Assembly (NCBI RefSeq): GCF_001435295.1
Contig: NZ_CM003594.1
Location: 1,550,001 to 1,614,000 of the forward strand
DNA from: Psychrobacter sp. P11F6
GTDB lineage: Bacteria; Pseudomonadota; Gammaproteobacteria; Pseudomonadales; Moraxellaceae
Reading direction: 5' to 3'
DNA length: 64,000 nucleotides
Shown here: piece after piece, positions 5,569-39,117 of the stretch
Layout of the letters: the number at the start of each line of letters is the position of its first letter
Numbering within the stretch: the stretch's first letter is position 1
Made by a program: the position numbers and the translations under genes
Notes under the pieces: generated by a model
Told to the model about the DNA's origin: nothing
Database searches by the model: none
Seen by the model: only the letters and a program-made list of their open reading frames with translations

Positions 5569-6893
<1,325 letters not shown>

Positions 6894-17651: not shown

Positions 17652-20600
17652 ATGAACCGCATCTATAAAGTAATATGGAATGAAGCCTTGAGCTGTTTTA
17701 CCGCAGTTGGTGAATATGCAAAGGGGCGCGGCAAATCTTCCAAATCTAGCGTGAGCGCAAACGCGACCATCAATACGACTTCTAATCTTTCTTCTACCCA
17801 ATTTTTCCGATTATCTACGATCGCCATAGGGATGCTGGCGGCTGGATTTACAATGTCACCGCAAGCTTTTGCACAAGTGAATGTCGGCGGTGGTACGGGA
17901 TCTGGTACGGCAATTTCTTCTTGTAATACAAACAGTACTGAGGCAAATGCTGAAGGCAGCTATTCGGTTGCCATTGGCTGTGAAGCGGACGCTGGACAAA
18001 ACTTCAATCTGGTCGATAGAGGCAATCCGTCGTTTACTTGGACGGGTGGTTCACAAAACAACTCTGGTAGTACCGCCATTGGCACTGGGACAGAAGCCGG
18101 TGACGTCGCTACTGCTCTAGGCACTCAAGCAAAAGCTATTGGTCGGTCATCTGTGGCAATTGGGGCGGCAGCATATTCTAATGGGAATACCTCGTTAGCG
18201 CTTGGACGTCAATCGGCAGCGACTGCTGACTTTGCTCAGGCTATTGGTAACGTCTCCTCAGCAACGGGTCAAGGCTCTCTTGCTGTTGGTCATTCAGCAC
18301 TTGCCTCAGGCAAACGTGGTATTGCGATTGGTTCAACTGATTTTGAAAATGCAGGTACAGTGGCCGATCAAGCAAATGTAGGTTATAGAGCGAATGGACA
18401 AACTCAAGCAGTTGGCAGTGATACGATTGCCTTTGGTAGTAATGCAAAAGCGACTGCTGATAACAGTCTTGCTTTTGGTGTCGGCTCTCGATCTAACGCA
18501 GTAAATGGCATCGCATTAGGTTCAAACTCTATTGCAAATCGTGCTGGTGGTGCCAGTGGTTTCGTGCCAGTAGGAGCAGATAGCTCAGTCATCCAAGCGA
18601 CGGACAGCGTTACGCTTGGCGCGGTCTCTGTAGGAACAGGAGCAGCGGGTGGCAACCGTCAGATTGTAAACGTTGCAGCAGGCAGTAGTGCTAGTGATGC
18701 TGTCAATGTGGCTCAGCTAACGGGGCTGTCGAATACTGTCGCTAATAATAAAACTAAGTATTATAGCGTAGACTCAACCGCTATCGGTAATGCTAATAAC
18801 GACGGAGCGACAGGTTATAACGCCATGGCGCTGGGCGGAAATGCAAAAGCCACAGGCAGCCAAACTATTGCGATTGGCAGCTCAGAATTTGGGCAACAGA
18901 CGATGGCAAGTGGTGAGCAATCGATTGCTATCGGTGCTAATGTCGTGTCTAGAGGGGCATCGTCTATCGCAATAGGCGGTGATGATCTAGATTTTGCATC
19001 GAAAACCAATATCGATGGTAGTCCGTTGTCACCATTAAATAGTGGCACAGTTAACGATGTTTTCAAATCCTACGTAGGTAAAGATTTGGTAGAAACCAAT
19101 CAGTACGATGTCAATACCGAAGCTGGAGGTGCTGCGTCGATAGCCATTGGTGCAAAATCGCTGTCTAAAGGTGATCTGTCTACAGCCGTTGGTGTTCATT
19201 CCAATACCTCGGGAACGGCTTCTTCAGCGTTTGGTGTTGGCGCATCAGCGAGCAAAGACGGTTCAGTCTCTTTAGGTGCAGGCTCAACAACAGCAACAAG
19301 TGCAAGCTCTGAAAAGACGATGACAGTTGGTGGCGTGGTATATGATATCGCCGGTAATGTCATTGATGATAAGGGCATGCTACGAGAGGGTGCGCAAGTA
19401 TCCGTGGGCGTAGTAGGATCTGAGCGTCAGATCAAAAACGTCGCTGGTGGAGCTGTCACTGCGGCTAGTACAGATGCCGTGAATGGTAGTCAATTATATG
19501 CGACCAATGAAGCTGTCGGAAATAATACCACGACTATTAACAAAGGCTTTGCGCTAAAAGCCGCTGATGGTAATACAGTACAGAAACCATTGGGACAAGC
19601 CGTTGAGGTAGTTGGCTCTAACAGCAACATCGACACCCGAGTAAAAAATGGCAAAATCGAAGTCGAGCTCAATGACAACTTAAACCTAGGTACAACAGGC
19701 AGCGTTAGCACTGGCAACTTATTAAACGGCACAACGGTCAATGGTCTAGGTATTGTCACTGGCGGCGTGCTCACTGGCGTCACTACCGTTAGTGGTGCAG
19801 GTGTCACGGTAACGGGTGGAAACATATTTAACCCTACCAATGCCACGTTAACCAGCAATGGTCTGACCATTTTAAATGGTCCAAGCATCACCAAAAGCGG
19901 GGTCAATGCGGGTAATAAGAGAGTTATTAACGTTGATGATGGGGTTAACGCAAAAGATGCGGTGAATTTTAGTCAGCTAGAAACGACTAATACTAATGTT
20001 ACGACCAATACTAACAACATCTCAACCAATACTACCAATATTGGCACCAACACTGACAATATTGCTAAAGGCATCAAGTTTAATGTGAATGATGCAAGTA
20101 GCGGCGGCACTCTCAAAAAAACCTTCGCCTTGGGTGAAGAAATTAAGTTTGATACGGACAGTAATTTAACCACCACTGGCTTATCAACGGGTGATGGAAT
20201 CAAACTTGGCTTAGCCAACAACTTAACAGGTCTGGATAGCGCAAGCTTTAATAGCGGCGTTAGTATCTCATCTACTGGTATCAATGCCAACGACACCCAG
20301 ATCAAGGGAGTAAAAAGCGGTGGTAATACAGTAACCAATGCAGCAAACATCGGTGATGTACAAATGGCAGCCGCAGGAGCGAGAACCAAAGTAGTTAAAG
20401 GTACGAATGTTGCCAGTGTTGACTTTTCAACCGATAGCGATACTGGACAGGATGTCTATACTGTCAATGCCAATGGCACCAGTGTTTCTACTGCAGATGC
20501 TAATGCACTAACAGTTAGCACTAGTGTCAAAGATCCTGATACCAATATCACCGACTATCAAGTTGATCTAAGCGAAGGTAGTAAGGCAAGCTTGGTAAAA

Positions 20601-22889
20601 GCTGATAGTGCGATGCAAACGGTAGTGACACAAATCAATGGTGCTGAAGTCAAAACTCTGGATAAAGACAATAATACAGCCAACTTTATTACTGGTGACA
20701 ATATTGTCTTGACCGCTGACAATGGTGGTATCAAAGTTGCTACTGCTGCCGATTTAGTCTCAACCAGCTTGACCACAGGAACTACAGTCGTCAACGCTGA
20801 TGGTGTCACATTCACGGGTGGGACTAATCAAACGGTCAGACTCAGTAATAGTGGGCTGGACAATGGTGGCAATCAAATTACCAATGTCGCTAACGGTACA
20901 ATAGCCAGCGATGCCGTAAACTTTGGTCAACTACAAGCCACGACCACGACCATCGATAAAGGCCTCGACTTCGATGGTGACACGGGTACTACCGTTAATC
21001 GTCAGCTTGGTGACAAGCTGGCAATCAAAGGTGGCACGACCGTGGCAAGTGACTTGTCAAATGGCAACAACATTGGCGTCGTTGCTGACGGTACCAGCAC
21101 ATTGACCGTGAAACTTGCGAAAGATTTAACTGGTCTTAACAGCGCAAACTTTGGTAGCGGTGTCAGCATCTCAGCCAATGGTCTGAACAATGGTGGCAAT
21201 AAAATTACTAACGTTGCAGAAGCGACCACAGGTAAGGATGCGGTAAACTTCGACCAATTGTCAGCAACCAATAGTCTCGTGGCCAAAGGCATCAAAATCG
21301 GTGATGGCAATAGTGCCAACGACCAGCAGTTTGCTTTAGGTGATACCATCAACGTCACTGGTGATAGCAACATTACGACGACAGCCTCGGCAACGGGTGT
21401 TCAGGTGAAACTGAATAACCAGTTAAATTTAGGCAATGAGGGTAGCATGCAGATTGGTAATAGCATTATGAATAGTAATGGCTTTACCTTTACTGGTAAT
21501 GGTCTGGGTAAAACGGTTAGACTGAGCAGTAGTGGTCTTGACAATGGTTTTAACAGAATCACCAATGTAGCTGCTGGTATTGCAGATACAGATGCGGCGA
21601 CTGTCGGACAGTTGAACGCCACGACGTTTGCCCTTGATCAAGGTTGGGGACTAACGGCTCAGGGTGATGTTGCCACTATGATCAAACAAGGCAGCGCCAT
21701 CGATTTGAACAGTACAGATGGTAATATTAAAGTGTCTAGATCAGCGGACAATAATGTTAGTCCTGGCCTACTTGCTGCTGCACCATTGGCAGGCGTCAAT
21801 GACATTAGCTTCGATTTAAATCCAGACCTGAATTTAGATAGCGTAACGACGGGTGATACCATTATGAATAATAATGGACTGACTATTACAGGTGGACCTA
21901 GTGTCACCAAAGCGGGTATCGATGCTGCTGACACTAAGATTACAAACGTTGTGAATGGCGATGTCTCTGAAGGTAGCAAAGATGCTATCAATGGTGGTCA
22001 GCTCTATGCACAAGGTAGTGGCATCAGTAGTATCATTGGCGGTGAGACAGTCTACAATCCTGTAGATGGTACCTTTACCAATAGTAATATTGGTGGTACT
22101 GGTCAAAATAGTATCGACGGTGCGATTGCTTCTATTAAGCAAGGAGAAGTCGTTATCAATGAAAACATCCAAGCCAACACCACCAATATCCAAACCAATA
22201 CCACGAATATTGCCACTAATAAAACAAACATCGACACCAATACGACTAATATCAAAGTGAACAAGGATAAAATAGATGCGGGTCTCAATTTTGGTGCTGA
22301 TAGCGGTGCTACCATCAACAAACCAGTAGGCGATGGCAGTGTCCTCACCTTCACAGGTGGTAATAACATCACCACAACAGCAGCAGGCAGTAGTATTAAG
22401 TTTGATCTAAACGGTGATATTAATATCGATAGCGTCAAAACTGGCAATACGACAATCAATAATAATGGTGTCAGCATTGTCGGTGGTCCTAGTATGACTG
22501 CAAGCGGTATCAACGCCGCTGGTAACAAGATCACTGATGTGGCTGATGGCATGGCTCCCAGAGATGCTGTGAATATGGGTCAATTAGATGCTGTTAGTCA
22601 AAGACTTGGCAACAACATGAATGAGCTAGGTTATAAAATTGGTGAAGTCGAAGACGATGCAAATGCTGGTATCTCAGCCGCCATGGCAATGTCTTCACTA
22701 CCGCAAGCTTACATCGCTGGTAAATCCTTAATCGGTGGCGGTATAGGAACGTACAATGGGGAAAGTGCAGTTGCTATTGGCTTCTCGAAGTTATCCAATG
22801 ATGGTCGTTGGGTCATGAAGGTAAACGGCACCGCTGATACCCAAGGTAATGCTGGCGGCTCGATTGGTGCAGGCTTCCATTTTGATTAA
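17652..22889 (+). CDS. Trimeric autotransporter adhesin (type Vc, YadA/Hia-like)
   Basis: A 1745-residue surface adhesin that trimerises and is anchored in the outer membrane. The start at ATG 17652 gives a canonical extended signal peptide region (MNRIYKVIWNEALSCFTAVGE) followed by a signal peptide ending near SPQAFA, residue 74. Next come YadA-head repeats (SxAIGxxAxASG type) to about 330 and again at about 390-560, neck motifs (IVNVAAGSSASDAVNVAQL and related), a long stalk with repeated NTNNIxTNTxNI coiled-coil segments, and a C-terminal YadA anchor of about 65 residues from about 1675. The last residue is Asp after an aromatic, instead of the usual terminal aromatic. Monocistronic, with its own terminator. 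Confidence 0.93.
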   Translation: MNRIYKVIWNEALSCFTAVGEYAKGRGKSSKSSVSANATINTTSNLSSTQFFRLSTIAIGMLAAGFTMSPQAFAQVNVGGGTGSGTAISSCNTNSTEANAEGSYSVAIGCEADAGQNFNLVDRGNPSFTWTGGSQNNSGSTAIGTGTEAGDVATALGTQAKAIGRSSVAIGAAAYSNGNTSLALGRQSAATADFAQAIGNVSSATGQGSLAVGHSALASGKRGIAIGSTDFENAGTVADQANVGYRANGQTQAVGSDTIAFGSNAKATADNSLAFGVGSRSNAVNGIALGSNSIANRAGGASGFVPVGADSSVIQATDSVTLGAVSVGTGAAGGNRQIVNVAAGSSASDAVNVAQLTGLSNTVANNKTKYYSVDSTAIGNANNDGATGYNAMALGGNAKATGSQTIAIGSSEFGQQTMASGEQSIAIGANVVSRGASSIAIGGDDLDFASKTNIDGSPLSPLNSGTVNDVFKSYVGKDLVETNQYDVNTEAGGAASIAIGAKSLSKGDLSTAVGVHSNTSGTASSAFGVGASASKDGSVSLGAGSTTATSASSEKTMTVGGVVYDIAGNVIDDKGMLREGAQVSVGVVGSERQIKNVAGGAVTAASTDAVNGSQLYATNEAVGNNTTTINKGFALKAADGNTVQKPLGQAVEVVGSNSNIDTRVKNGKIEVELNDNLNLGTTGSVSTGNLLNGTTVNGLGIVTGGVLTGVTTVSGAGVTVTGGNIFNPTNATLTSNGLTILNGPSITKSGVNAGNKRVINVDDGVNAKDAVNFSQLETTNTNVTTNTNNISTNTTNIGTNTDNIAKGIKFNVNDASSGGTLKKTFALGEEIKFDTDSNLTTTGLSTGDGIKLGLANNLTGLDSASFNSGVSISSTGINANDTQIKGVKSGGNTVTNAANIGDVQMAAAGARTKVVKGTNVASVDFSTDSDTGQDVYTVNANGTSVSTADANALTVSTSVKDPDTNITDYQVDLSEGSKASLVKADSAMQTVVTQINGAEVKTLDKDNNTANFITGDNIVLTADNGGIKVATAADLVSTSLTTGTTVVNADGVTFTGGTNQTVRLSNSGLDNGGNQITNVANGTIASDAVNFGQLQATTTTIDKGLDFDGDTGTTVNRQLGDKLAIKGGTTVASDLSNGNNIGVVADGTSTLTVKLAKDLTGLNSANFGSGVSISANGLNNGGNKITNVAEATTGKDAVNFDQLSATNSLVAKGIKIGDGNSANDQQFALGDTINVTGDSNITTTASATGVQVKLNNQLNLGNEGSMQIGNSIMNSNGFTFTGNGLGKTVRLSSSGLDNGFNRITNVAAGIADTDAATVGQLNATTFALDQGWGLTAQGDVATMIKQGSAIDLNSTDGNIKVSRSADNNVSPGLLAAAPLAGVNDISFDLNPDLNLDSVTTGDTIMNNNGLTITGGPSVTKAGIDAADTKITNVVNGDVSEGSKDAINGGQLYAQGSGISSIIGGETVYNPVDGTFTNSNIGGTGQNSIDGAIASIKQGEVVINENIQANTTNIQTNTTNIATNKTNIDTNTTNIKVNKDKIDAGLNFGADSGATINKPVGDGSVLTFTGGNNITTTAAGSSIKFDLNGDINIDSVKTGNTTINNNGVSIVGGPSMTASGINAAGNKITDVADGMAPRDAVNMGQLDAVSQRLGNNMNELGYKIGEVEDDANAGISAAMAMSSLPQAYIAGKSLIGGGIGTYNGESAVAIGFSKLSNDGRWVMKVNGTADTQGNAGGSIGAGFHFD

Positions 22890-23152: not shown

Positions 23153-24334
23153 TTATACTCTGAACATAGCTGCATTTGGGGTCAATCCGACATAAGCCAT
23201 GCCAGCTTGCTCCATCCAATGTGGCTGCACGATACCATGTTGTAAAATAGCATGAATGTCTCGATGCGCTCTTTCTATTCTATGTTTTTTATATAGCGAG
23301 ACCGTACCAGCGACCGCATAAATCTCCGATACCATGGCTCTGGCTTCTCTCGCTGCCTCACAGGCTGCTGCCCACACATCAGCCAGCTGTATATCGGTAA
23401 AGGCATTCTGTTGCTGTGCTTCGTTCCATAATACCTCTACGCTATTGTGTAGTTGTGCGCACCTAGACGCTAATAGTGTTTTGCTTTTAGCAATAGTCGC
23501 TTGTACTGCTGCACGATCACGCAAATCTGGGCTTTTACCGGGCGTTACTTTCTCAAGGCAAATTTGGATTAACTCATCTGTCGCTGCTTTTAAGACACCC
23601 AGTGCCATCGCTGCACAGCCAGCGGCATTAATACAGCCGATTGGTAGGCGGCTATACGCATTATCGATGGCGGCAGGGCTATCAAAATCGACCGCATAAC
23701 GTTCCTGCACAAACGCGTCTTTGATGACGATGTCATGACTGCCTGTACCATTTAGTCCACCAACATGCCAAGTATCAATCACTTCCACATCTTCTTTTGG
23801 AATAAAGAACAGCTTTAAATTTGCACCCGGTCCAAGGGTCGTAGGCGAGCCTTCAGATATTACCAAGCAGCGCAGCACAAACCAGTCTGCCAATTCACAA
23901 CCTGATACTAATGTCCATTGACCTGAGACCGTATATCCTTCAGCGGTTTGTTTAGCAATCCCTTCAGGGCGTGCTGAGTTGGCATAGACATGAGAGGGGT
24001 CACTATATATCTCCTTCATGCTAGGCTCGTCTAAAAATCGTCCAAATGTGCAGGCCAAATGATTGTTCCAAACGATCCAAGCAACTGAGGCTTCAGCACT
24101 GGCTAGCGTCTCATAAACCTTTAACGTTTCCACAGGATTGCCTTGCCATCCTCCCAACGATTTTGGCAGTCCCATCCTAAATAACGACAACTCTGACAGT
24201 TTTTTGACCACTGTCGGTGCAATTTTTCTACAGGTTTCTGTTTCTTCTCTAGCCGATAGGGCTAAATCATAAATATCTTGAGCGGCATGGGATGGTAGAG
24301 CGTCTTTGTTATTTGATAAAGGTGTATAACTCAT
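23153..24334 (-). CDS. Acyl-CoA-dehydrogenase-fold flavoprotein, possible group D flavin monooxygenase
   Basis: A 393-residue flavoprotein. The ATG at 24334 is preferred; a TTG nine bases upstream sits too close to the AAGG site. It shows the acyl-CoA dehydrogenase layout: helical N-terminus, central beta domain (SGQWTLVSGCELADWFVL), and C-terminal helices ending with RIERAHRDIHAI. The catalytic Glu of true acyl-CoA dehydrogenases is not evident, and the C-terminal pattern is that of reduced-flavin-dependent hydroxylases such as the HpaH oxygenase component and DszC. Near the aromatic catabolism genes it may hydroxylate or desulfurise an aromatic compound. No flavin reductase partner lies beside it. 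Confidence 0.7.
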   Translation of the reverse strand: MSYTPLSNNKDALPSHAAQDIYDLALSAREETETCRKIAPTVVKKLSELSLFRMGLPKSLGGWQGNPVETLKVYETLASAEASVAWIVWNNHLACTFGRFLDEPSMKEIYSDPSHVYANSARPEGIAKQTAEGYTVSGQWTLVSGCELADWFVLRCLVISEGSPTTLGPGANLKLFFIPKEDVEVIDTWHVGGLNGTGSHDIVIKDAFVQERYAVDFDSPAAIDNAYSRLPIGCINAAGCAAMALGVLKAATDELIQICLEKVTPGKSPDLRDRAAVQATIAKSKTLLASRCAQLHNSVEVLWNEAQQQNAFTDIQLADVWAAACEAAREARAMVSEIYAVAGTVSLYKKHRIERAHRDIHAILQHGIVQPHWMEQAGMAYVGLTPNAAMFRV

Positions 24335-24703
24335 AATATCCAACCTTATTTTAATGTATAAAACAGTATGTTTATCTAAAATTAATTCTAAATTTGAGAT
24401 ATAACAACGCCTATACCAAGAATAGCCAACAGTTGACTGCTATACAACCAATAATTTGAATATATTAAATATTATATTGAGATAAAAAGTGGAAGTGATG
24501 ATTCGATGAAATATTGAATGCTGTATTTGGCTTAAGAGTATCGATGCTTTGTCTATTTTCAGGCAGTCATTCGCTTTGATTGCTTTGTCTGAGCCCTGAG
24601 CCCAGCAATTATAAGGGCGTTTTGTTATTAAATTCTCTAATCATTTAATTTTCTAGTCATTTAATAGCAAAATACCCTTACTGAAAGCACTCTGTTTGAT
24701 TGT
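24335..24703. other. Non-coding interval upstream of the flavoprotein gene
   Basis: About 370 AT-rich bases with no supportable gene. An imperfect direct repeat (TCTAATCATTTAATT then TCTAGTCATTTAATA, about 24635-24664) is the only pattern seen. It should contain the flavoprotein promoter and the 3' end of the maiA transcript, but neither a promoter nor a terminator could be assigned. Confidence 0.4.
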
Positions 24704-25354
24704 TTATTGAGACTTGGGCGCATCAGGCTGCATGCTAGGATCAGCGTCAGCAAAGGCTTTGAGCGTACGGCAATGCGTGTCAATTTCGACGATATTGGGA
24801 TAAGCACTTAAATCCACGTTAAAACGTCGCGCCGAAGAGACCTGAGGAATCAAATAGCAATCTGCAAAAGTAGGGCTGTCACCGTAGCAAAATTTTCCAC
24901 GGCTTTTGTCTTTTGCTAGTATTTTCTCTAACGCCGCAAAGCCCTCACTCATCCAACGGTTGCACCACGCCATGACTTTTTCTTCGTCTACTGCCAGCTC
25001 ATTGCGTAGGTATTGTAAGATACGGCGGTTATTAATAGGATGAATATCACAACCAATCATAGCGCTAATGGCTCGTACTTGCATACGTCCAGCCGCGTCT
25101 TTAGGCAATAGCGGGTTTTTAGGATGAACCTCTTCTAACCATTCTAAAATGGCTGGGCTTTGATATAGTAATAAATCATCTGTCTGTAAAACAGGCACCA
25201 ATCCTTGTGGATTGAGTGATTTAAAGGCATCTGCTAACTGCTCATCTTTTGCTAAATTGACCGAAATATAGTCATAATCTAAGCCTTTGAGATTCATCGC
25301 GATACGAGTACGATACGAGGTGCTGCTGCGAAAGTAGCCATAAAGTGTCATCAT
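24704..25354 (-). CDS. maiA: Maleylacetoacetate isomerase (zeta-class glutathione transferase)
   Basis: A 216-residue enzyme that isomerises maleylacetoacetate to fumarylacetoacetate with glutathione as cofactor, the penultimate step of tyrosine breakdown. The zeta-class N-terminal motif SSTSYRTRIAMNLKGL and the LNPQGLVPVL and QSPAILEWLEE signatures are present. It has an AAGGA site before the ATG. It is divergent from the IclR regulator and shares an upstream sequence motif with fahA. Assignment is strong. Confidence 0.92.
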   Translation of the reverse strand: MMTLYGYFRSSTSYRTRIAMNLKGLDYDYISVNLAKDEQLADAFKSLNPQGLVPVLQTDDLLLYQSPAILEWLEEVHPKNPLLPKDAAGRMQVRAISAMIGCDIHPINNRRILQYLRNELAVDEEKVMAWCNRWMSEGFAALEKILAKDKSRGKFCYGDSPTFADCYLIPQVSSARRFNVDLSAYPNIVEIDTHCRTLKAFADADPSMQPDAPKSQ

Positions 25355-25493: not shown

Positions 25494-26381
25494 ATGCCAA
25501 GTAAATTACTCATTGAGCAAAACATGCCAGCAGCTGAAAACCCTTTAGAAAATCCCGTGACAACCAATAAAAGTCAAAGTGGCGTCCAGTCACTGGAGAT
25601 TGGCTTGTCGGTATTAGACGTTCTTATTGATCATAACGAGCCGATGATGCTAAAAGATATTGCGCAAGTGATGCAAATGCATCCAGCAAAGTGTCACCGC
25701 TATTTGGTCAGTCTCATTCGTAAAAACTATGCGCGTAAGCTTGATGATGGTCGCTACGGGCTAGGCGATAGGGTTAACACATTGGCAGCATTGGGGCACT
25801 CTGTATTTAGTCAAAACAATATTTTAGAGCGGCTGACGCACATCGCTAATGAAATCAAAGACACCCTGAATTGCGGTGTGCAGATTGCCAAATGGTTTAG
25901 CGAAGGTCCTATTATTATTCAGTCCGTTGAACCAGATAGCCCGATTAGTATTATCACTCGTATCGGTTCACGTATGCCGCTGACGACATCGGCGACGGGG
26001 CAATTATTTGCCAGTTATCAGCCAGATGCCGTCATTCAGCCATTGGTCACAGCTGAATGGCAGACAGACAATGAAGCAATAATCACAGAAAAATGGCAGA
26101 ATTTCAGTCACTTGCAAGCCAAGATTCGTACCCAAGGCTATGCGACAGTGACGGGTGATATGCTCATGGGTATTAATGCCATTACCATTCCTGTCATATT
26201 GCCGCCGTTTGTTAATAGCGCTGTTAATCTATCTGCTGTTAGTGGCAAAACTGCTAGCAAAGGACTACCCCTAGAATATGCCATCACTATCATTGGAACG
26301 ACACAGCAATTGCCTATGAGTGAGAAACACAACGTGGTTGAGCAAATTCTAGCAATCGCGCAGCGTTATCAAATTGCGTAG
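25494..26381 (+). CDS. IclR-family transcriptional regulator
   Basis: A 295-residue regulator: a winged-helix DNA-binding domain at about 30-95 (VLDVLIDHNEPMMLKDIAQ, HPAKCHRYLVSLIRK) followed by the IclR effector domain (PLTTSATGQLFASY, YATVTGDMLMGINAITIP). IclR proteins often control aromatic degradation, including homogentisate pathways. Divergent position from maiA supports control of the maiA/fahA genes. Start is uncertain because no ribosome site is evident; Met11 is an alternative. It converges with the TRAP binding protein gene. Confidence 0.88.
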   Translation: MPSKLLIEQNMPAAENPLENPVTTNKSQSGVQSLEIGLSVLDVLIDHNEPMMLKDIAQVMQMHPAKCHRYLVSLIRKNYARKLDDGRYGLGDRVNTLAALGHSVFSQNNILERLTHIANEIKDTLNCGVQIAKWFSEGPIIIQSVEPDSPISIITRIGSRMPLTTSATGQLFASYQPDAVIQPLVTAEWQTDNEAIITEKWQNFSHLQAKIRTQGYATVTGDMLMGINAITIPVILPPFVNSAVNLSAVSGKTASKGLPLEYAITIIGTTQQLPMSEKHNVVEQILAIAQRYQIA

Positions 26382-26476: not shown

Positions 26477-27529
26477 TTAGACCACACAGGCGCTACTGGC
26501 AGCTTTTGCTTTTTCGTATACATTATTAGCATCTAGACCAGTGGCATTCACTTCATCTAGATAGTGCTGCGAGCCTTCCATTAATGGACCTTTCCAGTCT
26601 GGGTCATTGAGTGGGTCAGGAATATCGATCATGATATCGCCTTTTTCTTTAGCGGCAGCCATTGCTTTGGCGTTACTGACGTCAAATACTTTGGAGACAC
26701 GTGCTGCCATCTCCGCCCCTGAATTGTCATCAATCACTTTTTTGAGATCATCAGGTAAGTTGTTATATTTCTCTTTATTCATACTGATAACAAAAGTAGA
26801 ATTATAAAAAGGAATGTTGGTGTGCGTATTGATTAACTCATCAAGACGAAATGCTTGAATGGGCTGCCAAGTAAAGCTGAGCCCGTCAATGACACCGCGC
26901 TGAAGCGAGGTATAAGTATCACTGGCAGGCATGCCAACGGGCGCAGCGCCAGTCGCTTCGATAATGTGGCTAGCAACGGCAGAAGGTTGGCGAATACGCA
27001 AACCTTTCATATCAGCTGGCGTGCGAATAGGCTTATCTACAGTATGCAGCGCACCTTGTCCAGTGCCTATCAGCGCTAGTAGGTGAGTATCTTCGTACTC
27101 GTCTTTAATGACACCATCATCATACAGTTTATGAAGTATGCAGCTCTGCTGCTGTGCAGTATTTGTGATACCTGGCAGCTCTACAATTTGAGTTAAAGGA
27201 AATCGCCCTGCTGTATATCCTTGCGCTTGCATACCAATATCAACGATACCTTTCGCGGTAGCATCATAGGTAGCACCCGGTTTGCTAAGAGTAGCAGAAG
27301 GGTAGATCTCAATCTTTAAGCGGCCTTTTGATTCTTCTTCGATTTTCTTTGCCCATGGCTGCAATGCTTCAGTGTTTATGTTGTCATTGGCAGTCATAAA
27401 GTGTGAGAATCTTAGAGTAGTCGCATCGCCTGTATCTACATCAGCGTTTATTGCTGGGTCATTATTAGAGCAACCAGTCATTGCGATCGAGGTCGCTAAG
27501 AGTATTCCTAAAGGGGTTTTTATTTTCAT
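26477..27529 (-). CDS. Orphan TRAP transporter substrate-binding lipoprotein (DctP family)
   Basis: About 350 residues with a lipobox ending at Cys20 (SIAMTGC) and a DctP-type fold (LRFSHFMTANDNINTEALQPWAKK, KGLRIRQPSAVASHIIEATGAAPVGM, the position of the carboxylate-binding Arg). It binds an organic acid outside the cytoplasmic membrane for sodium-driven uptake. No DctQ or DctM membrane subunits are adjacent, so it must pair with components elsewhere. Position among aromatic genes suggests an aromatic or keto acid ligand; inference. The second ATG (27529) is better spaced from AAAGGA than the first (27532). Confidence 0.88.
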   Translation of the reverse strand: MKIKTPLGILLATSIAMTGCSNNDPAINADVDTGDATTLRFSHFMTANDNINTEALQPWAKKIEEESKGRLKIEIYPSATLSKPGATYDATAKGIVDIGMQAQGYTAGRFPLTQIVELPGITNTAQQQSCILHKLYDDGVIKDEYEDTHLLALIGTGQGALHTVDKPIRTPADMKGLRIRQPSAVASHIIEATGAAPVGMPASDTYTSLQRGVIDGLSFTWQPIQAFRLDELINTHTNIPFYNSTFVISMNKEKYNNLPDDLKKVIDDNSGAEMAARVSKVFDVSNAKAMAAAKEKGDIMIDIPDPLNDPDWKGPLMEGSQHYLDEVNATGLDANNVYEKAKAASSACVV

Positions 27530-27571
27530 CATTGAATCCTTTCATGATGGTTAGATATTGTTCGCTACCTA

Positions 27572-27675: not shown

Positions 27676-28251
27676 TCACTCACCGACAGGCGCGACTTCT
27701 CTTGCTTCAGCCAGTTCCTCTGCATGTAAAAACTGGGTATGCGCCGGTGCGCGTTTGGTAAGTGACCATTCTTCTAACATCTCATACTTCATGGCTTCAG
27801 TAATCATCGAGACTTTTTCTTCTGAGGTAATATCATCGTAGGTGAGTTCCATACGATGGCCATTAGGATCAAAGAAATAGATAGAATGAAAGATACCGTG
27901 ATTGGTCACGCCGACCACATCAATACCATTTTCTTCTAAATGCTTTTTTGCTGCCATTAAGGCATCACGGTCTTTTACCTTCATGGCTAAGTGTTGCACC
28001 CAATTTGGGGTATTCGGATCAAAACCCATTTCAGGCTGATTGGGCACTTCAAAAAACGCCAATACGTTGCCATTACCAGCATCTAAAAATACATGCATAT
28101 AAGGATCAAAGGCTTTGGTCGAAGGCACGTGGTCTTCAGCGAATGCAAGGATGAAGTCCATGTTTAGGTATTTTTGATACCATTCAACGGTTTCTTTAGC
28201 GTCTTTGCAGCGATAAGCCACATGATGGATTTTTTCAATTTTAAAGCTCAT
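27676..28251 (-). CDS. VOC-family metalloprotein, candidate alternative homogentisate dioxygenase
   Basis: A 191-residue protein of the vicinal oxygen chelate fold. The likely two-His-one-Glu metal set is complete: His10 (IHHVAYRC), His87 (WVQHLAMKV) and Glu135 (GHRMELTYDD), as in extradiol dioxygenases and glyoxalases. It lies 113 bases downstream of fahA in the same direction, with a good AAGGAG site. The window holds every tyrosine-to-fumarate enzyme except homogentisate 1,2-dioxygenase, so this protein may do the ring cleavage. That role is inference; glyoxalase-like or isomerase functions remain possible. Confidence 0.8.
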   Translation of the reverse strand: MSFKIEKIHHVAYRCKDAKETVEWYQKYLNMDFILAFAEDHVPSTKAFDPYMHVFLDAGNGNVLAFFEVPNQPEMGFDPNTPNWVQHLAMKVKDRDALMAAKKHLEENGIDVVGVTNHGIFHSIYFFDPNGHRMELTYDDITSEEKVSMITEAMKYEMLEEWSLTKRAPAHTQFLHAEELAEAREVAPVGE

Positions 28252-28364: not shown

Positions 28365-29666
28365 CTATTTGTCAAAATCAAAGTTAAGCGCGGGCAGTAC
28401 TTTGCCGCGTACTTCACCAAACCCGACACGAATGCCGTCTTTTTCGCTATAGCCTTTCATGATTACTGTGTCGCCATCTTCAATAAAACTGCGGGTCTCG
28501 CCGCCTTTTAAAGTGACAGGTTTGGTCGCATTCCAAGCAATCTCTAACATTGAGCCATAAGAATCTAGTGTTGGTCCTGAAATCGTCCCTGAGCCCATCA
28601 TATCGCCAACTTCCACTTTACAGCCAGTGATGGTGTGGTGGGTGAGCTGCTGCGCCATTGACCAATACATGTGCTTGAAGTTGGTCTCACAAACCACAGT
28701 GGCGCTATCTGAGTTTTCAGGCAATAACTCAACTGATAGATTGATGTCATAGCTATTATTGCTGTCTTTTTCGTTTAGATATGCCAATGGTTTTGGCTCT
28801 TGAATCGGGCATGCTGTTTTAAAAGGTGCCAACGCATCCATAGTCACAATCCAAGGCGAGACTTCAGAAGCAAAGGTTTTGGCATTAAATGGCCCTAAAG
28901 GCACGTATTCCCATTTTTGAATGTCACGGGCTGACCAGTCGTTGAGCAAAACCATGCCAAAAATATGCTCAAAGGCACTGTCTACTGCAATTGGTTGACC
29001 AATGCTATTACCTTTACCAACCACAAAAGCAGTCTCAAGCTCAAAATCTAAACGCTTGCAGGCTGAGAAAATAGGGCGGTCGTCAGCGTTTGGCTTTAAT
29101 TGACCAGACGGGCGTATCACCTCAGTGCCACTGACGATGACGGTGCTGGCGCGTCCGTTATAGCCGACTGGCATTTCAGTCCAGTTAGGTAGTAGGGCGT
29201 TGTTTGGATCACGGAACATAGTGCCGACGTTGGTGGCGTGTTCTTTAGACGAATAGAAATCGGTAAAACCTGGGACGTGAACAGGCAGATGCATGGTGAC
29301 GTCTGCTTGCTTCAACAATACCTTTTTCTGCAAGTCTTGATTATCACGCAAGGCGTCGCTGACACTAGATAGGAGGGTTTGGATGGTTGAGCGTGCTTGA
29401 GTCCAATTGTCTCGACCTGAATCAATAAAAGCGTTTAGCGTTGGTTGATCAAAATATGGACCGCCCTCTAAGCTCAGTAAACCTTCTGCTTCGAGCACGG
29501 CCAAATCCAATACGTACTCACCGATAGCCACACCAGCTCGGCGTTTGTTATTATCAGCAGCGTCTTTGGTATCACTAAAAATACCATAAGGCAGGTTATG
29601 AATGGAGAAGTCAGAATCAGCGGCGATATCGATAAAGGATGTGAGGCTGTTGTCAATCTTTGACAT
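28365..29666 (-). CDS. fahA: Fumarylacetoacetase
   Basis: A 433-residue enzyme that splits fumarylacetoacetate into fumarate and acetoacetate, the last step of tyrosine catabolism. It has the N-terminal SH3-like domain and the FAH catalytic domain with DFYSSKEHATNVGTMFRD, LNDWSARDIQKWEYVPLGPF and DMMGSGTISGP, which include the metal and catalytic residues of the family. AAGGAG site before ATG. Likely co-transcribed with the downstream VOC gene. Assignment is strong. Confidence 0.94.
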   Translation of the reverse strand: MSKIDNSLTSFIDIAADSDFSIHNLPYGIFSDTKDAADNNKRRAGVAIGEYVLDLAVLEAEGLLSLEGGPYFDQPTLNAFIDSGRDNWTQARSTIQTLLSSVSDALRDNQDLQKKVLLKQADVTMHLPVHVPGFTDFYSSKEHATNVGTMFRDPNNALLPNWTEMPVGYNGRASTVIVSGTEVIRPSGQLKPNADDRPIFSACKRLDFELETAFVVGKGNSIGQPIAVDSAFEHIFGMVLLNDWSARDIQKWEYVPLGPFNAKTFASEVSPWIVTMDALAPFKTACPIQEPKPLAYLNEKDSNNSYDINLSVELLPENSDSATVVCETNFKHMYWSMAQQLTHHTITGCKVEVGDMMGSGTISGPTLDSYGSMLEIAWNATKPVTLKGGETRSFIEDGDTVIMKGYSEKDGIRVGFGEVRGKVLPALNFDFDK

Positions 29667-29919: not shown

Positions 29920-31116
29920 TCAGTCTTTCAAGACGTCTGCCATGGCATTGGCCACATAGTCGATGTTGCTGGTGTTCAGTCCAGCCACACACATACGTGA
30001 GTTGGAAATCATGTAAATGCCAAACTCGCTTTGTAAGCGTTCGACTTGCTCAGGCGTCAAACCAGTAAAGCTAAACATGCCGTTTTGACGGGTAATATAG
30101 TCAAAGTTGCGGTTCGGGATTTTGGCTTCTAACACTGATTTTAGCTGTAAACGCATGGCTTTGATACGATCGCGCATCGCATAAACTTCGCCAACCCATT
30201 GCTTATGTAGTGCTTCGTCGTTCATGACGATATCGACCACACGACCACCATGTGATGGCGGGCTTGAGTAAATACGGCGTACGGTAGCATTCAGCTGACC
30301 GAAGACGCGCTCTGTCTCGTCAACCGTTGGACAAACAACTGATAGACCGCCGACACGCTCACCATATAGTGATAAGTTTTTAGAGAATGAGTTGCTGACA
30401 AACAATGGCAAGCCCATATCGACAGCTTTACGAATCGCATAAGCATCGCTGTCCATGTCTTCGCCAAAGCCTTGGTAGGCAATATCCATAAATGGAATCA
30501 GTTCGCGCGCTTGAATGACGTTCAGCACGGTATCCCATTGCTCACGGGTCAAATCTAGACCTGTTGGATTGTGGCAACAAGGATGCAGCAAGATCACATC
30601 ATTTTTGTTCAATGTCTCAAAAAACGCAATCATTTCATCGAACTTGATGCTGCTGTTGGCTTTGTCGTAGTACGGGTATTTACCCACTTCGACATCAGAG
30701 CCTTCAAAAATGGCAATGTGGTTGCCCCATGTTGGGTCACTCACATAGCATTTAGATTGTGGGAACCATTCATGGATGAACTCAGCGCCAACTTTTAACG
30801 CGCCAGAACCGCCGATCGTAGCGATAGTAGCGACCAAACCATCTTTTAAAATCTGCGCGTCTTTACCGAACAGTAGTTCCTGACAGCCTTTACGATGTCC
30901 TGGTAAGCCTGCCATCGGCAGATATGGACGCGGCGCAATAGGATCGGCAATGCGTTCTTCGGCTGTTTTTACACAGTCAAGTACGGGCAATACACCATTT
31001 TCATCATAATAAATACCAATGCCTAAATTGACCTTTTTAGGATTGTTATCTGCTGTATATTTTTCCATCAGCCCTAAAATTGGATCACCAGCGTAATAGT
31101 CGATACGTTCAAACAT
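29920..31116 (-). CDS. tyrB: Aromatic amino acid aminotransferase (class I)
   Basis: A 398-residue PLP enzyme of the AspC/TyrB type. The PLP lysine lies in SNSFSKNLSLYGERVGG; YDENGVLPVLDCV, HPCCHNPTGLD and the C-terminal arginine (SNSRMCVAGLN) are in place. It converts tyrosine to 4-hydroxyphenylpyruvate, feeding the hpd product nearby. Aspartate activity cannot be excluded on sequence, but the location favours the aromatic role. Strong AAGGAA site; own terminator. Confidence 0.88.
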   Translation of the reverse strand: MFERIDYYAGDPILGLMEKYTADNNPKKVNLGIGIYYDENGVLPVLDCVKTAEERIADPIAPRPYLPMAGLPGHRKGCQELLFGKDAQILKDGLVATIATIGGSGALKVGAEFIHEWFPQSKCYVSDPTWGNHIAIFEGSDVEVGKYPYYDKANSSIKFDEMIAFFETLNKNDVILLHPCCHNPTGLDLTREQWDTVLNVIQARELIPFMDIAYQGFGEDMDSDAYAIRKAVDMGLPLFVSNSFSKNLSLYGERVGGLSVVCPTVDETERVFGQLNATVRRIYSSPPSHGGRVVDIVMNDEALHKQWVGEVYAMRDRIKAMRLQLKSVLEAKIPNRNFDYITRQNGMFSFTGLTPEQVERLQSEFGIYMISNSRMCVAGLNTSNIDYVANAMADVLKD

Positions 31117-32211: not shown

Positions 32212-32356
32212 AAGTAAACCTGATAAATAAATCATAAAAAACAATTAGTCTTATAAATGAACCTAATCTAATATAAATACATCGTCAATAAGAATTATTG
32301 ATTGAAGACATTTTTTATTGCATTTTTACCACCAATTGAAATTAAGGATGATTACA

Positions 32357-33457
32357 ATGGCAGATTTATTTGACAACCCAATGAGCCTAAATGGGTTTGA
32401 TTTTGTTGAATTCGCCTCACCTCAACCGGATGCGGTCGACGCACTGTTCAAACAGCTTGGCTTTGCCCATGTCGCCAACCATCGCTCAAAAGATGTGGCG
32501 CTATACCGTCAAGGTGACATCAATCTTATTCTAAATCGTGAACCAAAAAGCGAAGCCAGCTATTTCGTTGAAGAGCATGGTGCTGGTGCTTGTAGCATGG
32601 GCTTTCGTGTGCAGAATTCTAAAAAAGCTTATGAGCGTGCCATCGAAATGGGCGCACAGCCAGTAGACGTACCAACTGGTGTGATGGAGCTACGCTTGCC
32701 TGCTATTAAGGGTATCGGTGGCTCACTGATTTATCTCATCGATCGTTATAAAGATGGTGAGTCTATTTATGACGTCGATTTCGAGTTTTTTGCTGATGTA
32801 GACCGTCGTCCTGTCGGGCATGGTTTTAAAGTCATCGACCATTTAACCCATAACGTCTACCGTGGTCGTATGGCCTATTGGGCAAACTTTTATGAGCGCA
32901 TATTTAACTTCCGCGAAATCCGCTTTTTTGACATCAAAGGTGAATATACGGGTTTGACCAGTAAAGCCATGACAGCGCCTGATGGCAAAATCCGTATTCC
33001 ATTGAACGAAGAGTCAAAGCAGGGCGGCGGTCAAATCGAAGAATACTTGATGCATTTCAACGGTGAAGGTATTCAGCATATTGCTTTAGCCAGCGATGAT
33101 TTGTTTGCCAGCATCGACAAGTTAAAAGCAGCGGGTATCCCGCTCATGACCGCTCCAACTGCGACTTACTATGAAATGCTGAGTGAGCGTCTACCAAATC
33201 ATGGCGAAAATGTCTCTGAGCTACAGATGCGCGGTATCTTATTAGATGGCACCACTGAAGGCGGCACACCGCGTCTGCTGCTACAAATTTTCTCTGAAAC
33301 TATCTTAGGTAGCCCTGTTTTCTTCGAGTTTATCCAGCGTAAAGGTGATTACGAAGATGGCTTTGGTGAAGGTAACTTCAAAGCCCTATTTGAATCCATT
33401 GAGCGCGATCAAGTCCGTCGTGGCACGGTTGGTCAGCCAGAAACTGAAACACCGTAA
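32357..33457 (+). CDS. hpd: 4-Hydroxyphenylpyruvate dioxygenase
   Basis: A 366-residue two-domain VOC enzyme that turns 4-hydroxyphenylpyruvate into homogentisate with Fe(II). The start at ATG 32357 has AAGGA nine bases upstream; the longer frame from 32318 has no such support. Iron ligands are the His of VIDHLTHNV, the His of [11 protein letters not shown] and the Glu of FFEFIQRKG. The C-terminal helix needed for catalysis ([16 protein letters not shown]) is intact. Divergent from the LysR gene. Confidence 0.95.
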
Positions 33458-33656
33458 GCGCCTCTACATTTAGGGAAAAATCCATAAAATAAATGGGCAG
33501 GGCAAAAGGAGTTTGTCTTGTCCCTAATAATCACTGCGCTCTGTAATGCCATGTGTTCAATGCGATGACTGGGCTATGGTTCAGTCATGATTGAAAACGA
33601 CTAGCAAAATTCAGAGTGCCATTCAGAGCGCTAATGGCAATAAAAGGAATACAGGC

Positions 33657-34610
33657 ATGGAACGCCTACCACATACGAATTCTGTTAATAAAGCTATCGG
33701 TGCCAACAGCGTTGCTTGCAAAACGCTAGGCACTGATGCCAGTCACGATAATTCTGCTCATAAAAAGCAGGATTCTATGCCTAAAAAACAACCTTACGTG
33801 TCGCATCAGCCAGATAGCCATGGTCATATTCACTATAGTGATGATGAAAATGGTATGTGGCAGGCATTGCTTGAGCGTCAAGCCGAACAAATACCTAACC
33901 GTGCCTGCCCAGCCTATCTAGACGGTTTAAAAAAACTGAATTTGCCCGTTACGCGTATTCCGCAGCTGCAAGATATTGATGCAGTATTGCAAGCCACCAC
34001 TGGTTGGCAAACTGCCGCTGTCCCTGCATTAATCAGTTTTGGTAAGTTTTTTAAATTGCTTGCCAATAAATCCTTTCCAGTGGCAACTTTTATCCGTCGA
34101 TTTGATGATATGGACTATATTGAAGAGCCTGATATTTTTCATGAAATCGTTGGACATTGTCCGCTTTTGACCCATCCTGCCTTTGCGACGTTCAATGAAA
34201 CTTATGGCAAGTTGGGTCTTAATGCCACTAAAGAAGAACGGTGGTTTTTGGCACGGCTCTATTGGTTTACCATCGAGTTTGGTTTGGTGGGACAAAATAA
34301 AGGCAGTCGCCGAATCTATGGCGGAGGCATCTTAAGCTCACCGTCTGAGACGGTGTATGCACTCAATGCTGGTTCTGAGCAGCAAGCAGAACCTCAGCAT
34401 CAACCGCAAAATCAACCAGAGCACCGAGCGTTTGACTTGCTTGATGTGTTGCGTACCCCTTATCGTATCGATCATATCCAGCCGATTTATTATGTCATTG
34501 ATGATTTGGATACATTATTTGATATCGTCAATAGCGATATCATGGGAATGGTCAAACAAGCCATGTCGCTAGGATTGTTCGAGCCTAGTTATGCAGTAAA
34601 AAACGCCTAA
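33657..34610 (+). CDS. phhA: Phenylalanine 4-hydroxylase
   Basis: Pterin- and iron-dependent hydroxylation of phenylalanine to tyrosine. The 317-residue reading from ATG 33657 uses an AAAGGA site; an upstream TTG (33591) and the downstream Met at 33777 are alternatives, and homology to the family begins near the latter. The iron site is PDIFHEIVGHCPLL with the Glu of YWFTIEFGLV. A Gln/Pro/Glu-rich insert (AEPQHQPQNQPEH) interrupts the C-terminal part and is unusual. Followed by phhB, its cofactor-recycling partner. Confidence 0.93.
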   Translation: MERLPHTNSVNKAIGANSVACKTLGTDASHDNSAHKKQDSMPKKQPYVSHQPDSHGHIHYSDDENGMWQALLERQAEQIPNRACPAYLDGLKKLNLPVTRIPQLQDIDAVLQATTGWQTAAVPALISFGKFFKLLANKSFPVATFIRRFDDMDYIEEPDIFHEIVGHCPLLTHPAFATFNETYGKLGLNATKEERWFLARLYWFTIEFGLVGQNKGSRRIYGGGILSSPSETVYALNAGSEQQAEPQHQPQNQPEHRAFDLLDVLRTPYRIDHIQPIYYVIDDLDTLFDIVNSDIMGMVKQAMSLGLFEPSYAVKNA

Positions 34611-34736: not shown

Positions 34737-35078
34737 ATGACGACATTATCACAAGCCAGCTGTGAGGTGTGCCGCATTGGCGCGCCAACGGTCAGCGACA
34801 TCGAAGCACAAGAGCTATTACAGCAAATTCCAGATTGGTCATTGATCGAGGTTGATGGCATCAAGCAATTACAACGTCCATATAAATTCAAAAACTTCGT
34901 CAAGGCGATGGAGTTTGCCAACCAATTAGCAGACATCGCCGAAGCAGAAGGGCATCATCCTGGCATATTGGTAGAGTGGGGCAAGGTGACGGTTACGTGG
35001 TGGTCACACAGCATTAAAGGTCTGCATCGCAATGATTTTGTCATGGCAGCTAAGACCGATAGTCTGCTGGATCAATAA
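34737..35078 (+). CDS. phhB: Pterin-4a-carbinolamine dehydratase
   Basis: A 113-residue protein that regenerates the tetrahydrobiopterin-type cofactor used by phenylalanine hydroxylase. The [21 protein letters not shown] block carries the catalytic histidines, and the length matches the family. AAAGGA site before the ATG. Lies 126 bases after phhA and is probably co-transcribed. Confidence 0.93.
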
Positions 35079-37178: not shown

Positions 37179-37958
37179 ATGATGAGTACAGATATGTTAC
37201 GTGCAAACCAATTGACCATCAGTCGCCAAGGTAATACCTTACTAGACAATGTAAGCTGTGAGATTGATAGCAACCAATTGGTCGCTTTGGTTGGACATAA
37301 TGGTTCAGGAAAATCGACTTTAATCAAAGCGCTGGCAGGCGAGATGATAAGTAATGGCGGTAGTATCAGCTTGGATGAGCGCCGTATCAGTGATTACAGT
37401 AGCAAAGCGCTGGCGCGACAAATGGCATATTTGCCACAGCAACTACCAGAAGCCGCTGGGTTTTCAGTACGTGAGCTGGTCATGTTAGGACGTTATCCGC
37501 ATCAAAAATGGCTGCAAAAGCCCAACCAAATAGACAAAGATAAAGTAATAGAAGCCATGCGCATCACCCAAACAGAGGCGTTCGCTGACCGCATTACGGC
37601 CACGCTTTCAGGTGGCGAGCGCGCTCGCGTTTGGCTTGCTATGTGTCTGGCACAAGACACCAGATATTTATTACTTGATGAGCCATTAGCCGCGCTTGAT
37701 ATGCACTATCAGCTTGAAGTTATCCAGCTTATCCGTCGTTTGGTGGATGAGCAGGGCTTGAGTGTGGTTATCATTTTGCATGATATTAATTTGGCCGCGC
37801 AGTATGCCGATCGAGTTATCGCCTTAAAAAACGGTCGTATTTGCCATAACGGTGATATCGGCAGCACCATGCAACCGACAGTATTGCACAAGATTTTTAA
37901 CGTCGATATGCAGCTGCTTAGTCATCCTATAACGGGGCAGCCAGTCGCTGTTGCCTAG
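37179..37958 (+). CDS. Iron-siderophore ABC transporter ATP-binding protein (FhuC/FepC-like)
   Basis: A 259-residue cytosolic ATPase powering ferric siderophore import. Walker A GHNGSGKST at 39-47, Q loop LPQQLPEAAG, signature LSGGERARV, Walker B YLLLDEPLAALD and switch His (ILHDINLA) are all present. Sequence is of the FhuC subgroup. A Fur-box-like site precedes it. A short MITE-like element sits between this gene and the binding-protein gene, right after the stop codon, and may weaken or separate downstream transcription. Confidence 0.9.
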   Translation: MMSTDMLRANQLTISRQGNTLLDNVSCEIDSNQLVALVGHNGSGKSTLIKALAGEMISNGGSISLDERRISDYSSKALARQMAYLPQQLPEAAGFSVRELVMLGRYPHQKWLQKPNQIDKDKVIEAMRITQTEAFADRITATLSGGERARVWLAMCLAQDTRYLLLDEPLAALDMHYQLEVIQLIRRLVDEQGLSVVIILHDINLAAQYADRVIALKNGRICHNGDIGSTMQPTVLHKIFNVDMQLLSHPITGQPVAVA

Positions 37959-37960
37959 TA

Positions 37961-38047
37961 GGGCATATCATCAATGTGAACGAAAATGAATAAGTAGGCT
38001 AAAAATGGTTAAATTTTTATAACCATTTTTAAAATGAGGGCATGCCC
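37961..38047. mobile_element. Short TA-flanked inverted-repeat element (MITE-like), copy 2, with internal hairpin
   Basis: An 87-bp element with TA at both edges (37959-37960, 38048-38049). Ends read GGGCATATCATCA and (reverse complement) GGGCATGCCCTCA, related to copy 1 at 27572. Inside is a perfect 11-bp hairpin (38001-38011 with 38020-38030, GGTTA core, T run at the end) that resembles an intrinsic terminator. The right edge also holds the palindrome AGGGCATGCCCT. Confidence 0.6.
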
Positions 38048-38109
38048 TAGTATTTGTTTCATCTTTTTCATTTCTTATTTTCTCTTATTCGCGCAAAAGA
38101 TAGGCCGCC

Positions 38110-39117
38110 ATGTTTCCAGCTCTTTATAAATCTCTGTTCTCTTTAATAGCCATAAAACCTTTTATAAAAGCTGGCTCAAATCTCACTATCAGTAAATATA
38201 AGTGGTTGCCGCTTATAGCAAGCTTAACACTGAGCATGGTGCTGACGGCCTGTCACCAACCAATAACGTCACAAAAAGACGCTCAAGTGGGCAATGTAGA
38301 TAACGCTAACATCAATATAGTCTCACCTGATTGGGGCAATGCGGCAACCTTGACCGCCATGGGTTACCCCCCGATAGCGACGGGTGATGTGAGGGTGTGG
38401 GACAGATGGGTAGGTACGCCTGAATTGCCAACCTCAATCATTGATTTGGGCATTCGCTATCAGCCTAATGCGGAATTGGTTGCCCAATTGCCTGTCGATT
38501 TGGTCGTCGATAACTTTTTTTATGAGCATGCCCGCAATCTCTATGGAGATGTGCCCTCTGAGTCAGTCATGTTCGCCGCCAAAGGTGATACTGCAACTTG
38601 GGCAGATTATACTGAGCCAACTCGTCAGTTGGGACAGCTAATTGATGAACCAGCCTTGGCTGAAAGCTATATTACAAAAAGTCAGACAGATATCAAACTG
38701 GCAAGTGAGCGTCTGCAGCAGCGCTATCCAAAAGTAAAGAGATTTGCCGTTGTGCAGTTTGCTGATGCCAATAACATGCGCATGTATGTCAAAAATAGTT
38801 TGTTTCAGCCCGTGCTAAAAGAGATGGGCAGAGAGCTGGATGTATTAGGCAAAGGCAATCAATGGGGGTTTGTCCCTATTCGAATGGGCGACTTGGCTCA
38901 ATTGGATAATGAGACCTGCCTATTAATCATCGACCCTTTAAGCCCGATAACCCGAGCTGAGATTAAAGACAGTTTGGTTTGGCAGCGTCTAGGCTATGGC
39001 GATGAGCGCTGCGTGGGTGAGCTGCCGCCCATATGGATTTATGGTGGCATGTCGTCACTGGTCGGCTTAGCAAATAATTTATCAACAGTGACATTAAAAG
39101 GTGGGGCAGCATCATGA
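38110..39117 (+). CDS. Iron-siderophore substrate-binding lipoprotein (FhuD-like)
   Basis: A 335-residue class III periplasmic binding protein with a lipobox ending at Cys48 (MVLTAC). Features are WGNAATLTAMGYPPIATGD near the N-terminus and PELPTSIIDLGIRYQPNAELVAQLPVDLVV, typical of ferric-hydroxamate binders. It overlaps the permease gene by four bases (ATGA), so the two are translationally coupled. The ligand cannot be read from sequence. The ribosome site is weak. Confidence 0.87.
   Translation: MFPALYKSLFSLIAIKPFIKAGSNLTISKYKWLPLIASLTLSMVLTACHQPITSQKDAQVGNVDNANINIVSPDWGNAATLTAMGYPPIATGDVRVWDRWVGTPELPTSIIDLGIRYQPNAELVAQLPVDLVVDNFFYEHARNLYGDVPSESVMFAAKGDTATWADYTEPTRQLGQLIDEPALAESYITKSQTDIKLASERLQQRYPKVKRFAVVQFADANNMRMYVKNSLFQPVLKEMGRELDVLGKGNQWGFVPIRMGDLAQLDNETCLLIIDPLSPITRAEIKDSLVWQRLGYGDERCVGELPPIWIYGGMSSLVGLANNLSTVTLKGGAAS

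Follow-up and report, generated by a model that had tools for sequence, protein, structure and literature searches.

A VOC-fold protein predicted to act as homogentisate 1,2-dioxygenase in Psychrobacter sp. P11F6

The window analyzed here, a stretch of 64,000 nucleotides from Psychrobacter sp. P11F6 (assembly GCF_001435295.1, contig NZ_CM003594.1, positions 1,550,001 to 1,614,000 of the forward strand), carries genes for the breakdown of phenylalanine and, among them, a gene for a small protein of the VOC family:

27676..28251, minus strand: predicted VOC-type homogentisate 1,2-dioxygenase, 191 aa, with predicted ligands H10, H87 and E135 and 80% identity to PDB 9u42

HmgA is the textbook gene for the homogentisate step, and its loss leads to brown pyomelanin. 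We propose, with a probability of roughly 0.95, that the VOC protein of the window is a single-domain VOC-fold homogentisate 1,2-dioxygenase, orthologous to the Acinetobacter enzyme of PDB entry 9u42; its catalytic activity is a prediction from the evidence below. A preliminary description of this DNA had suggested that the protein replaces HmgA non-homologously. This is supported by the title of 9u42, the phylogenetic profile, the gene neighbourhood, co-expression and an insertion mutant, but not in the form of a simple replacement, as clusters in alphaproteobacteria contain both enzymes.

The VOC protein, its relatives and its predicted metal site

The open reading frame starts with ATG, just 5' of which lies a ribosome-binding-like site (AGGAG). 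Close relatives carry the annotation Psychrobacter, which fits a window from that genus or one very near to it. Pfam models of the VOC type only are matched by the protein (Glyoxalase PF00903, E 1.1e-14). In the structure model two beta-alpha-beta modules build one VOC domain, with H10 ahead of strand one of the first module, H87 at the start of strand one of the second module and E135 in that module's last strand, an arrangement which we take to be the layout expected for a VOC metal site. These residues, described earlier as a complete His-His-Glu site, are indeed invariant in all 72 aligned relatives (72 of 73 representatives, L111 not being included), with identity down to 34%; so are H53, H118, Y125, S44, T45, W84 and R133. 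Their role as metal ligands is predicted from knowledge of the VOC family, not from coordinates. E68 is nearly invariant and, to judge from the alignment, could be an additional ligand. The extradiol signature (the pattern of PROSITE PS00082) is present in every one of the 48 loci tested, among them that of the window.

Among the structure matches listed, the closest solved structure is 9u42, with about 80% identity over 169 residues, a root mean square deviation of 1.5 and the same fold. The entry was released on 2025-07-23 under the title "Homogentisate 1,2-Dioxygenase from Acinetobacter", while the molecule itself is named 'Glyoxalase'. Its source, Acinetobacter, is a different genus within the family of the window's organism, and the protein is similar to the window protein over the full length and identical to it at H10, H87 and E135. 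A search by title of the open-access literature found no article on 9u42, and in PMC12718150 homogentisate appears in the reference list only. An enzyme of this VOC-type kind was already deposited in 2025 and, as far as we have seen, is not yet reflected in annotation: among the matches listed (for VOC relatives, the best 120 of 8000 scored candidates), the gene is called only 'VOC family protein' or 'glyoxalase'. Because the gene is so poorly annotated, the tyrosine pathway of Psychrobacter, Acinetobacter and further genera can be scored as broken. A clear name would close this gap in the pathway.

In the mechanism that we envisage, Hpd would make homogentisate, the VOC enzyme would open its ring to yield maleylacetoacetate, and MaiA and FahA would convert the latter into fumarate and acetoacetate. 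The two modules of one chain would form a cup in which a single divalent metal is bound via H10, H87 and E135; Fe(II) or Mn(II) is our guess for the working metal, while the 9u42 crystal contains Zn. Homogentisate and O2 would bind to the metal, and cleavage would occur between a hydroxyl-bearing carbon and the neighbouring carbon that bears the side chain, with the invariant H118, Y125 and H53 as likely second-shell residues.

The preliminary description had referred to the LinE/PcpA group, but an assignment of the protein to this group is not supported. The LinE/PcpA hydroquinone dioxygenases are two-domain proteins of about 320 residues, while the window protein is a 191-aa chain with one VOC domain; neither name occurs in the sequence matches or among the structure matches listed (50 entries in each of two lists). 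These enzymes use the VOC fold to cleave the ring of a hydroquinone next to a substituted carbon, and the chemistry proposed here is the same. The second-best PDB sequence profile match is 1zsw (E 8.8e-16), a glyoxalase family protein of 338 residues matched in two stretches, and the L-DOPA dioxygenase from Streptomyces sclerotialus (6on3, 6on1), by its name acting on another substrate, is 18% identical to the VOC protein.

No NCBIfam model (June 2026) reaches its cut-off on the 191-aa protein, which weakly matches many models of VOC proteins that are not dioxygenases. We rejected glyoxalase I, FosA and YaeR (21.8 of 120, 22 of 250 and 36 of 140 bits required by the cut-offs), as well as catechol 2,3-dioxygenase (TIGR03211, 32.5 of 320.2 bits) and HpaD (TIGR02295, 30.6 of 321.4 bits).

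The absence of HmgA and the phylogenetic profile

The HmgA domains PF04209 and PF20510 have no match at E <= 0.001 in the whole 3.51-Mb assembly (99.93% complete), in a search that detected HmgA of Caulobacter used as the positive control. An hmgA gene outside the window, whose discovery would have spoken against the original suggestion, is thereby ruled out. The 25 genomes of the genus that we searched likewise lack HmgA. Of these, 19 have the VOC gene and exactly the same 19 have fumarylacetoacetase, a co-occurrence to be read with the caveat that the two genes adjoin, so that a single deletion could take both. One genome of the genus without the VOC gene (G022:C1:1757294-1757443) retains an N-terminal fumarylacetoacetase match of 51 residues, suggesting that the whole pathway has been lost there.

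Across the phylum, we analyzed 219 evenly drawn Pseudomonadota genomes, counting fumarylacetoacetase and hpd only above the model cut-offs. Weak or partial matches to PF04209 in G091, G053, G170 and, as a fragment, G204, all above the 21-bit Pfam cut-off, were not counted as HmgA. Fumarylacetoacetase is encoded in 36 genomes, 25 with HmgA and 11 without it, and a VOC relative occurs in 3 of the 25 versus all 11 of the latter (8 of them with at least 59% identity, 3 with 39–41%). Fisher's test gives p = 6e-7, or 7e-4 without the distant VOC form, values that serve only as a guide, the genomes being non-independent. For the 94 hpd-bearing genomes, both enzymes occur in 7, HmgA alone in 51, the VOC protein alone in 18 and neither in 18.

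The VOC gene was also followed through 80 named GTDB loci (the best 80 of 597 stretches), annotated by tblastn with reference proteins. From these we chose 25 (5 Psychrobacter, 6 Acinetobacter, 2 Marinomonas, one metagenome-assembled genome (MAG) of Neisseriaceae and 11 with hpd in the locus) and added 3 chromosome-sized records of A. baumannii; alphaproteobacterial loci with HmgA nearby were not part of this choice. In this selection of VOC-bearing genomes or records, HmgA is absent from 25 of 28, including 9/9 of Acinetobacter and 5/5 of Psychrobacter. For Acinetobacter this 28-genome check is the basis of the statement, the tblastn search of plasmids for HmgA having 60 of 180 records listed. 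Three A. baumannii records (NZ_CP077849.1, NZ_CP064203.1 and NZ_CP104448.1; L151-L153) are of chromosome size (3.7–4.1 Mb) and are filed as plasmids.

Gene neighbourhoods and the evidence from Acinetobacter

The preliminary description had stated that the window holds all enzymes from phenylalanine to fumarate except HmgA, and this is borne out: the six enzymes exceed curated NCBIfam cut-offs. The genes around the VOC gene are as follows:

23153-24343, minus strand: flavin monooxygenase of the HsaA / 4-hydroxyphenylacetate 3-hydroxylase oxygenase type, near maiA (HsaA model E 2e-39, far below the cut-off)
24704..25354, minus strand: maiA, maleylacetoacetate isomerase (TIGR01262, 283 bits, cut-off 171.05)
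25494..26381, plus strand: IclR-type regulator (PF01614 and PF09339), a kind also found beside the Acinetobacter VOC gene
26477-27532, minus strand: TRAP-type substrate-binding protein (DctP), flanked by the VOC and iclR genes
28365..29666, minus strand: fahA, fumarylacetoacetase, directly upstream of the VOC gene in the same direction (TIGR01266, 584.8 bits, cut-off 375.3)
29920..31116, minus strand: aromatic amino acid transaminase (NF006719, 559.9 bits, cut-off 377)
32318..33457, plus strand: hpd, the homogentisate-making 4-hydroxyphenylpyruvate dioxygenase (TIGR01263, 390.3 bits, cut-off 277)
33591..34610, plus strand: phhA, phenylalanine 4-monooxygenase (TIGR01267, 320.4 bits, cut-off 264.75)
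34737..35078, plus strand: phhB, 4a-hydroxytetrahydrobiopterin dehydratase (NF002016, 182.8 bits, cut-off 133)

The VOC gene lies directly downstream of fahA, as noted originally; it has the same orientation, with 113 bp between the two, and is followed by the gene for the TRAP binding protein, iclR on the opposite strand and maiA; hpd, phhA and phhB lie on the other side. In A. baumannii the order is fahA-maiA-VOC-iclR-hppD, so that the VOC gene again occurs with fahA, maiA, an iclR-type gene and hppD, whereas in the window the TRAP binding protein and iclR split maiA from fahA and the VOC gene, with hpd, phhA and phhB linked. The TRAP gene adjoins the VOC gene in the Psychrobacter loci L049, L050, L053 and L066, and not in L051 and L055. 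Through the HsaA-type monooxygenase, a further aromatic acid could enter the homogentisate route.

In the 80 loci, 50 of which extend for at least 9 kb on either side of the VOC gene, a fumarylacetoacetase-type gene lies within 10 kb of it in 63, maiA in 44, hpd in 25 and HmgA in 20. In ten loci hpd is less than 400 bp away; several have the order hpd-VOC-fahA, and the VOC gene stands directly between hpd and fahA in the betaproteobacterial loci L082, L115 and L116 and in a MAG of Holophagaceae (L072). A relative of FAD hydroxylases is found within 10 kb of the VOC gene in 44/80 loci, more often than hpd, and some clusters have an FAD hydroxylase and an MBL-fold protein, sometimes with DUF2783, in place of hpd; these possibly represent an entry of the 3-hydroxyphenylacetate type. 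The cluster of MBL-fold protein, FAD hydroxylase and (often) DUF2783 recurs with either HmgA or the VOC gene close to a fumarylacetoacetase-type gene (L139, L146, L087, L088, L024). Before that gene, L024 and L088 have the VOC gene in the slot where L139 and the second cluster of L087 have HmgA. Thus, cupin HmgA (PF20510/PF04209) occupies the same step of the pathway and the same position in otherwise alike clusters, although its fold is unrelated, its reference is 434 aa long versus 191 aa, and the VOC protein has no match to the HmgA Pfam domains. On an Acinetobacter plasmid, genes for an FAD monooxygenase and iclR are divergent from fahA, maiA, the VOC gene, CoA-transferase A and B and thiolase; the cluster is a route to acetyl-CoA, for which the VOC protein is the sole ring-cleavage candidate in the stretch shown. 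In G204 (L131) remnants of hmgA lie beside fahA (G204:C33, around 6256-6549; residues 382-434 with E 2e-9, residues 57-81 weakly with E 0.007), and the VOC gene is stop-free on a separate contig; this looks like the decay of HmgA in a genome that has the VOC enzyme.

Published work on A. baumannii bears on the same gene. PMC7646211 reports no hmgA homologue and a gene with a ring-cleaving dioxygenase domain between hmgC and hmgR. According to PMC9431530, Tn2006 is inserted in 'hmgA' of a pigmented strain (chromosome CP088895), and pigment is lost when 'hmgA' is supplied. We judged the insertion site by the printed duplication alone, which has nine letters where the text says 11 bp. In all 7 loci checked (six of A. 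baumannii, one of A. lactucae) these letters occur a single time in the roughly 5.5 kb that surround and include the VOC gene, and this one match is at nucleotide 76 of the gene; the expectation by chance is 0.58 per 4.7-kb cluster, of which the VOC gene makes up 12%. By this match, the 'hmgA' supplied in that work is very likely the VOC gene. In PMC11348943, hppD, a VOC gene, maiA and fahA are raised together (log2 values 2.90, 2.16, 2.20 and 2.14 for RNA; 1.91, 2.78, 1.82 and 1.73 for protein); this is probably the gene studied here, because its locus tag falls between those of hppD and maiA. PMC8307839 lists a VOC protein with hppD, maiA and fahA among the nine most lowered genes.

The 'hmgA' reference of PMC11945678 (633 bp) overlaps a 1308-bp 'hmgB' by 14 bp, and these lengths and the overlap match exactly maiA and fahA of A. 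baumannii. The three reports on pigmented A. baumannii appear to call different genes 'hmgA': an inactive distant homologue (PMC7646211), the insertion target that matches the VOC gene (PMC9431530) and a gene of the size of maiA (PMC11945678). A clear name for the VOC gene would help to settle these conflicting reports.

Counter-evidence and alternative explanations

A number of observations weigh against the assignment. The function of 9u42 is that given in the depositors' title; the identification of the supplied 'hmgA' comes from nine printed letters, and L021 (14.5 kb) has one more match to them outside the cluster (2 seen versus 1.44 expected); and PMC7646211 judges the dioxygenase-domain gene as probably non-functional, since the strain is pigmented. 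In the profile, G204 was counted as HmgA-less despite its fragment above the Pfam cut-off (if counted as HmgA-bearing, the VOC relative is found in 4/26 and 10/10), and the three distant VOC proteins have no fumarylacetoacetase next to them in the stretches retrieved (L142, L144, L145). The 18 hpd-bearing genomes with neither enzyme mean that hpd alone demands none. Of the 28 VOC-bearing genomes in the phylum sample, 14 lack a fumarylacetoacetase above the cut-off, 13 of these having hpd; a shorter FAA-type gene lies near the VOC gene in some such cases (L133, L139, L140). Three of the 28 chosen genomes or records (Marinomonas polaris, an Oxalobacteraceae and Rhodoferax ferrireducens) have both enzymes, so that the VOC protein would be redundant or otherwise employed there. 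No pathway gene looked for was found in 9/80 loci, several of them short contigs, and in Cupriavidus necator N-1, which has a 49% identical relative, no gene within 8 kb is annotated to the tyrosine pathway; outer members of the VOC family may do other things. The 20 loci with HmgA within 10 kb are nearly all alphaproteobacterial, many clusters combining hmgA, fahA or a shorter FAA-type gene, MBL, FAD hydroxylase and VOC, often with maiA; sharing the cluster with HmgA, the VOC protein would be redundant or substrate-shifted. The window protein itself, with its identity of about 80% to 9u42 and its complete gene context, is not directly affected by these distant or HmgA-bearing loci.

The shared alphaproteobacterial clusters, together with the weak matches to non-dioxygenase VOC models, would agree with an accessory role of the VOC protein, for instance as a detoxifying or isomerising enzyme of the glyoxalase type, some other, unrecognised enzyme cleaving homogentisate. 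The genome encodes elsewhere an extradiol protein of the LigB type (G000:C1:620034-620774), whose best model, 4,5-DOPA dioxygenase, is matched with 194 bits and thus short of the cut-off of 233; we rejected it as a stand-in because it is closest to that enzyme, although the exclusion is incomplete. Gentisate dioxygenase, another candidate stand-in, has no match in the genome. With HmgA missing as well, with the VOC gene tracking the gap left by HmgA, with isomerisation already covered by MaiA, with both the extradiol signature and the predicted ligands conserved, and in view of the title of 9u42, we regard an accessory role as very improbable. It is also conceivable that the VOC protein cleaves another hydroquinone or catechol, brought in with the TRAP binding protein or made by the HsaA-like monooxygenase, while homogentisate goes no further and leaves the cell as pigment. 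The genes for both proteins flank the cluster, and FAD-hydroxylase relatives outnumber hpd near the VOC gene; yet FahA and MaiA exceed the cut-offs of pathway-specific models, the VOC gene is placed directly between hpd and fahA in the betaproteobacterial loci and the Holophagaceae MAG named above, and in A. baumannii a VOC gene is raised or lowered along with hppD, maiA and fahA, so that this explanation seems to us extremely improbable.

Given that the VOC protein is a homogentisate 1,2-dioxygenase, it might represent a second, independently evolved mode of homogentisate cleavage that spread over Proteobacteria and MAGs beyond them, repeatedly displaced HmgA, and was kept beside it in alphaproteobacteria owing to a different metal, oxygen need or substrate (e.g. 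a homogentisate analogue made by the FAD hydroxylase); we put this forward tentatively, as somewhat less than an even chance. The coexistence of the two enzymes in alphaproteobacteria is the most interesting point left, and in lineages that have both, the reason for keeping two can be tested directly.

Elsewhere in the window, judged by the translations, positions 17643-22889 (plus strand) encode a repetitive protein of 1748 aa that resembles trimeric autotransporter adhesins, and positions 37179-41282 (plus strand) hold genes resembling an iron-siderophore ABC importer (ATPase, binding protein and permease), in which the permease (722 aa) is apparently a fusion of two.
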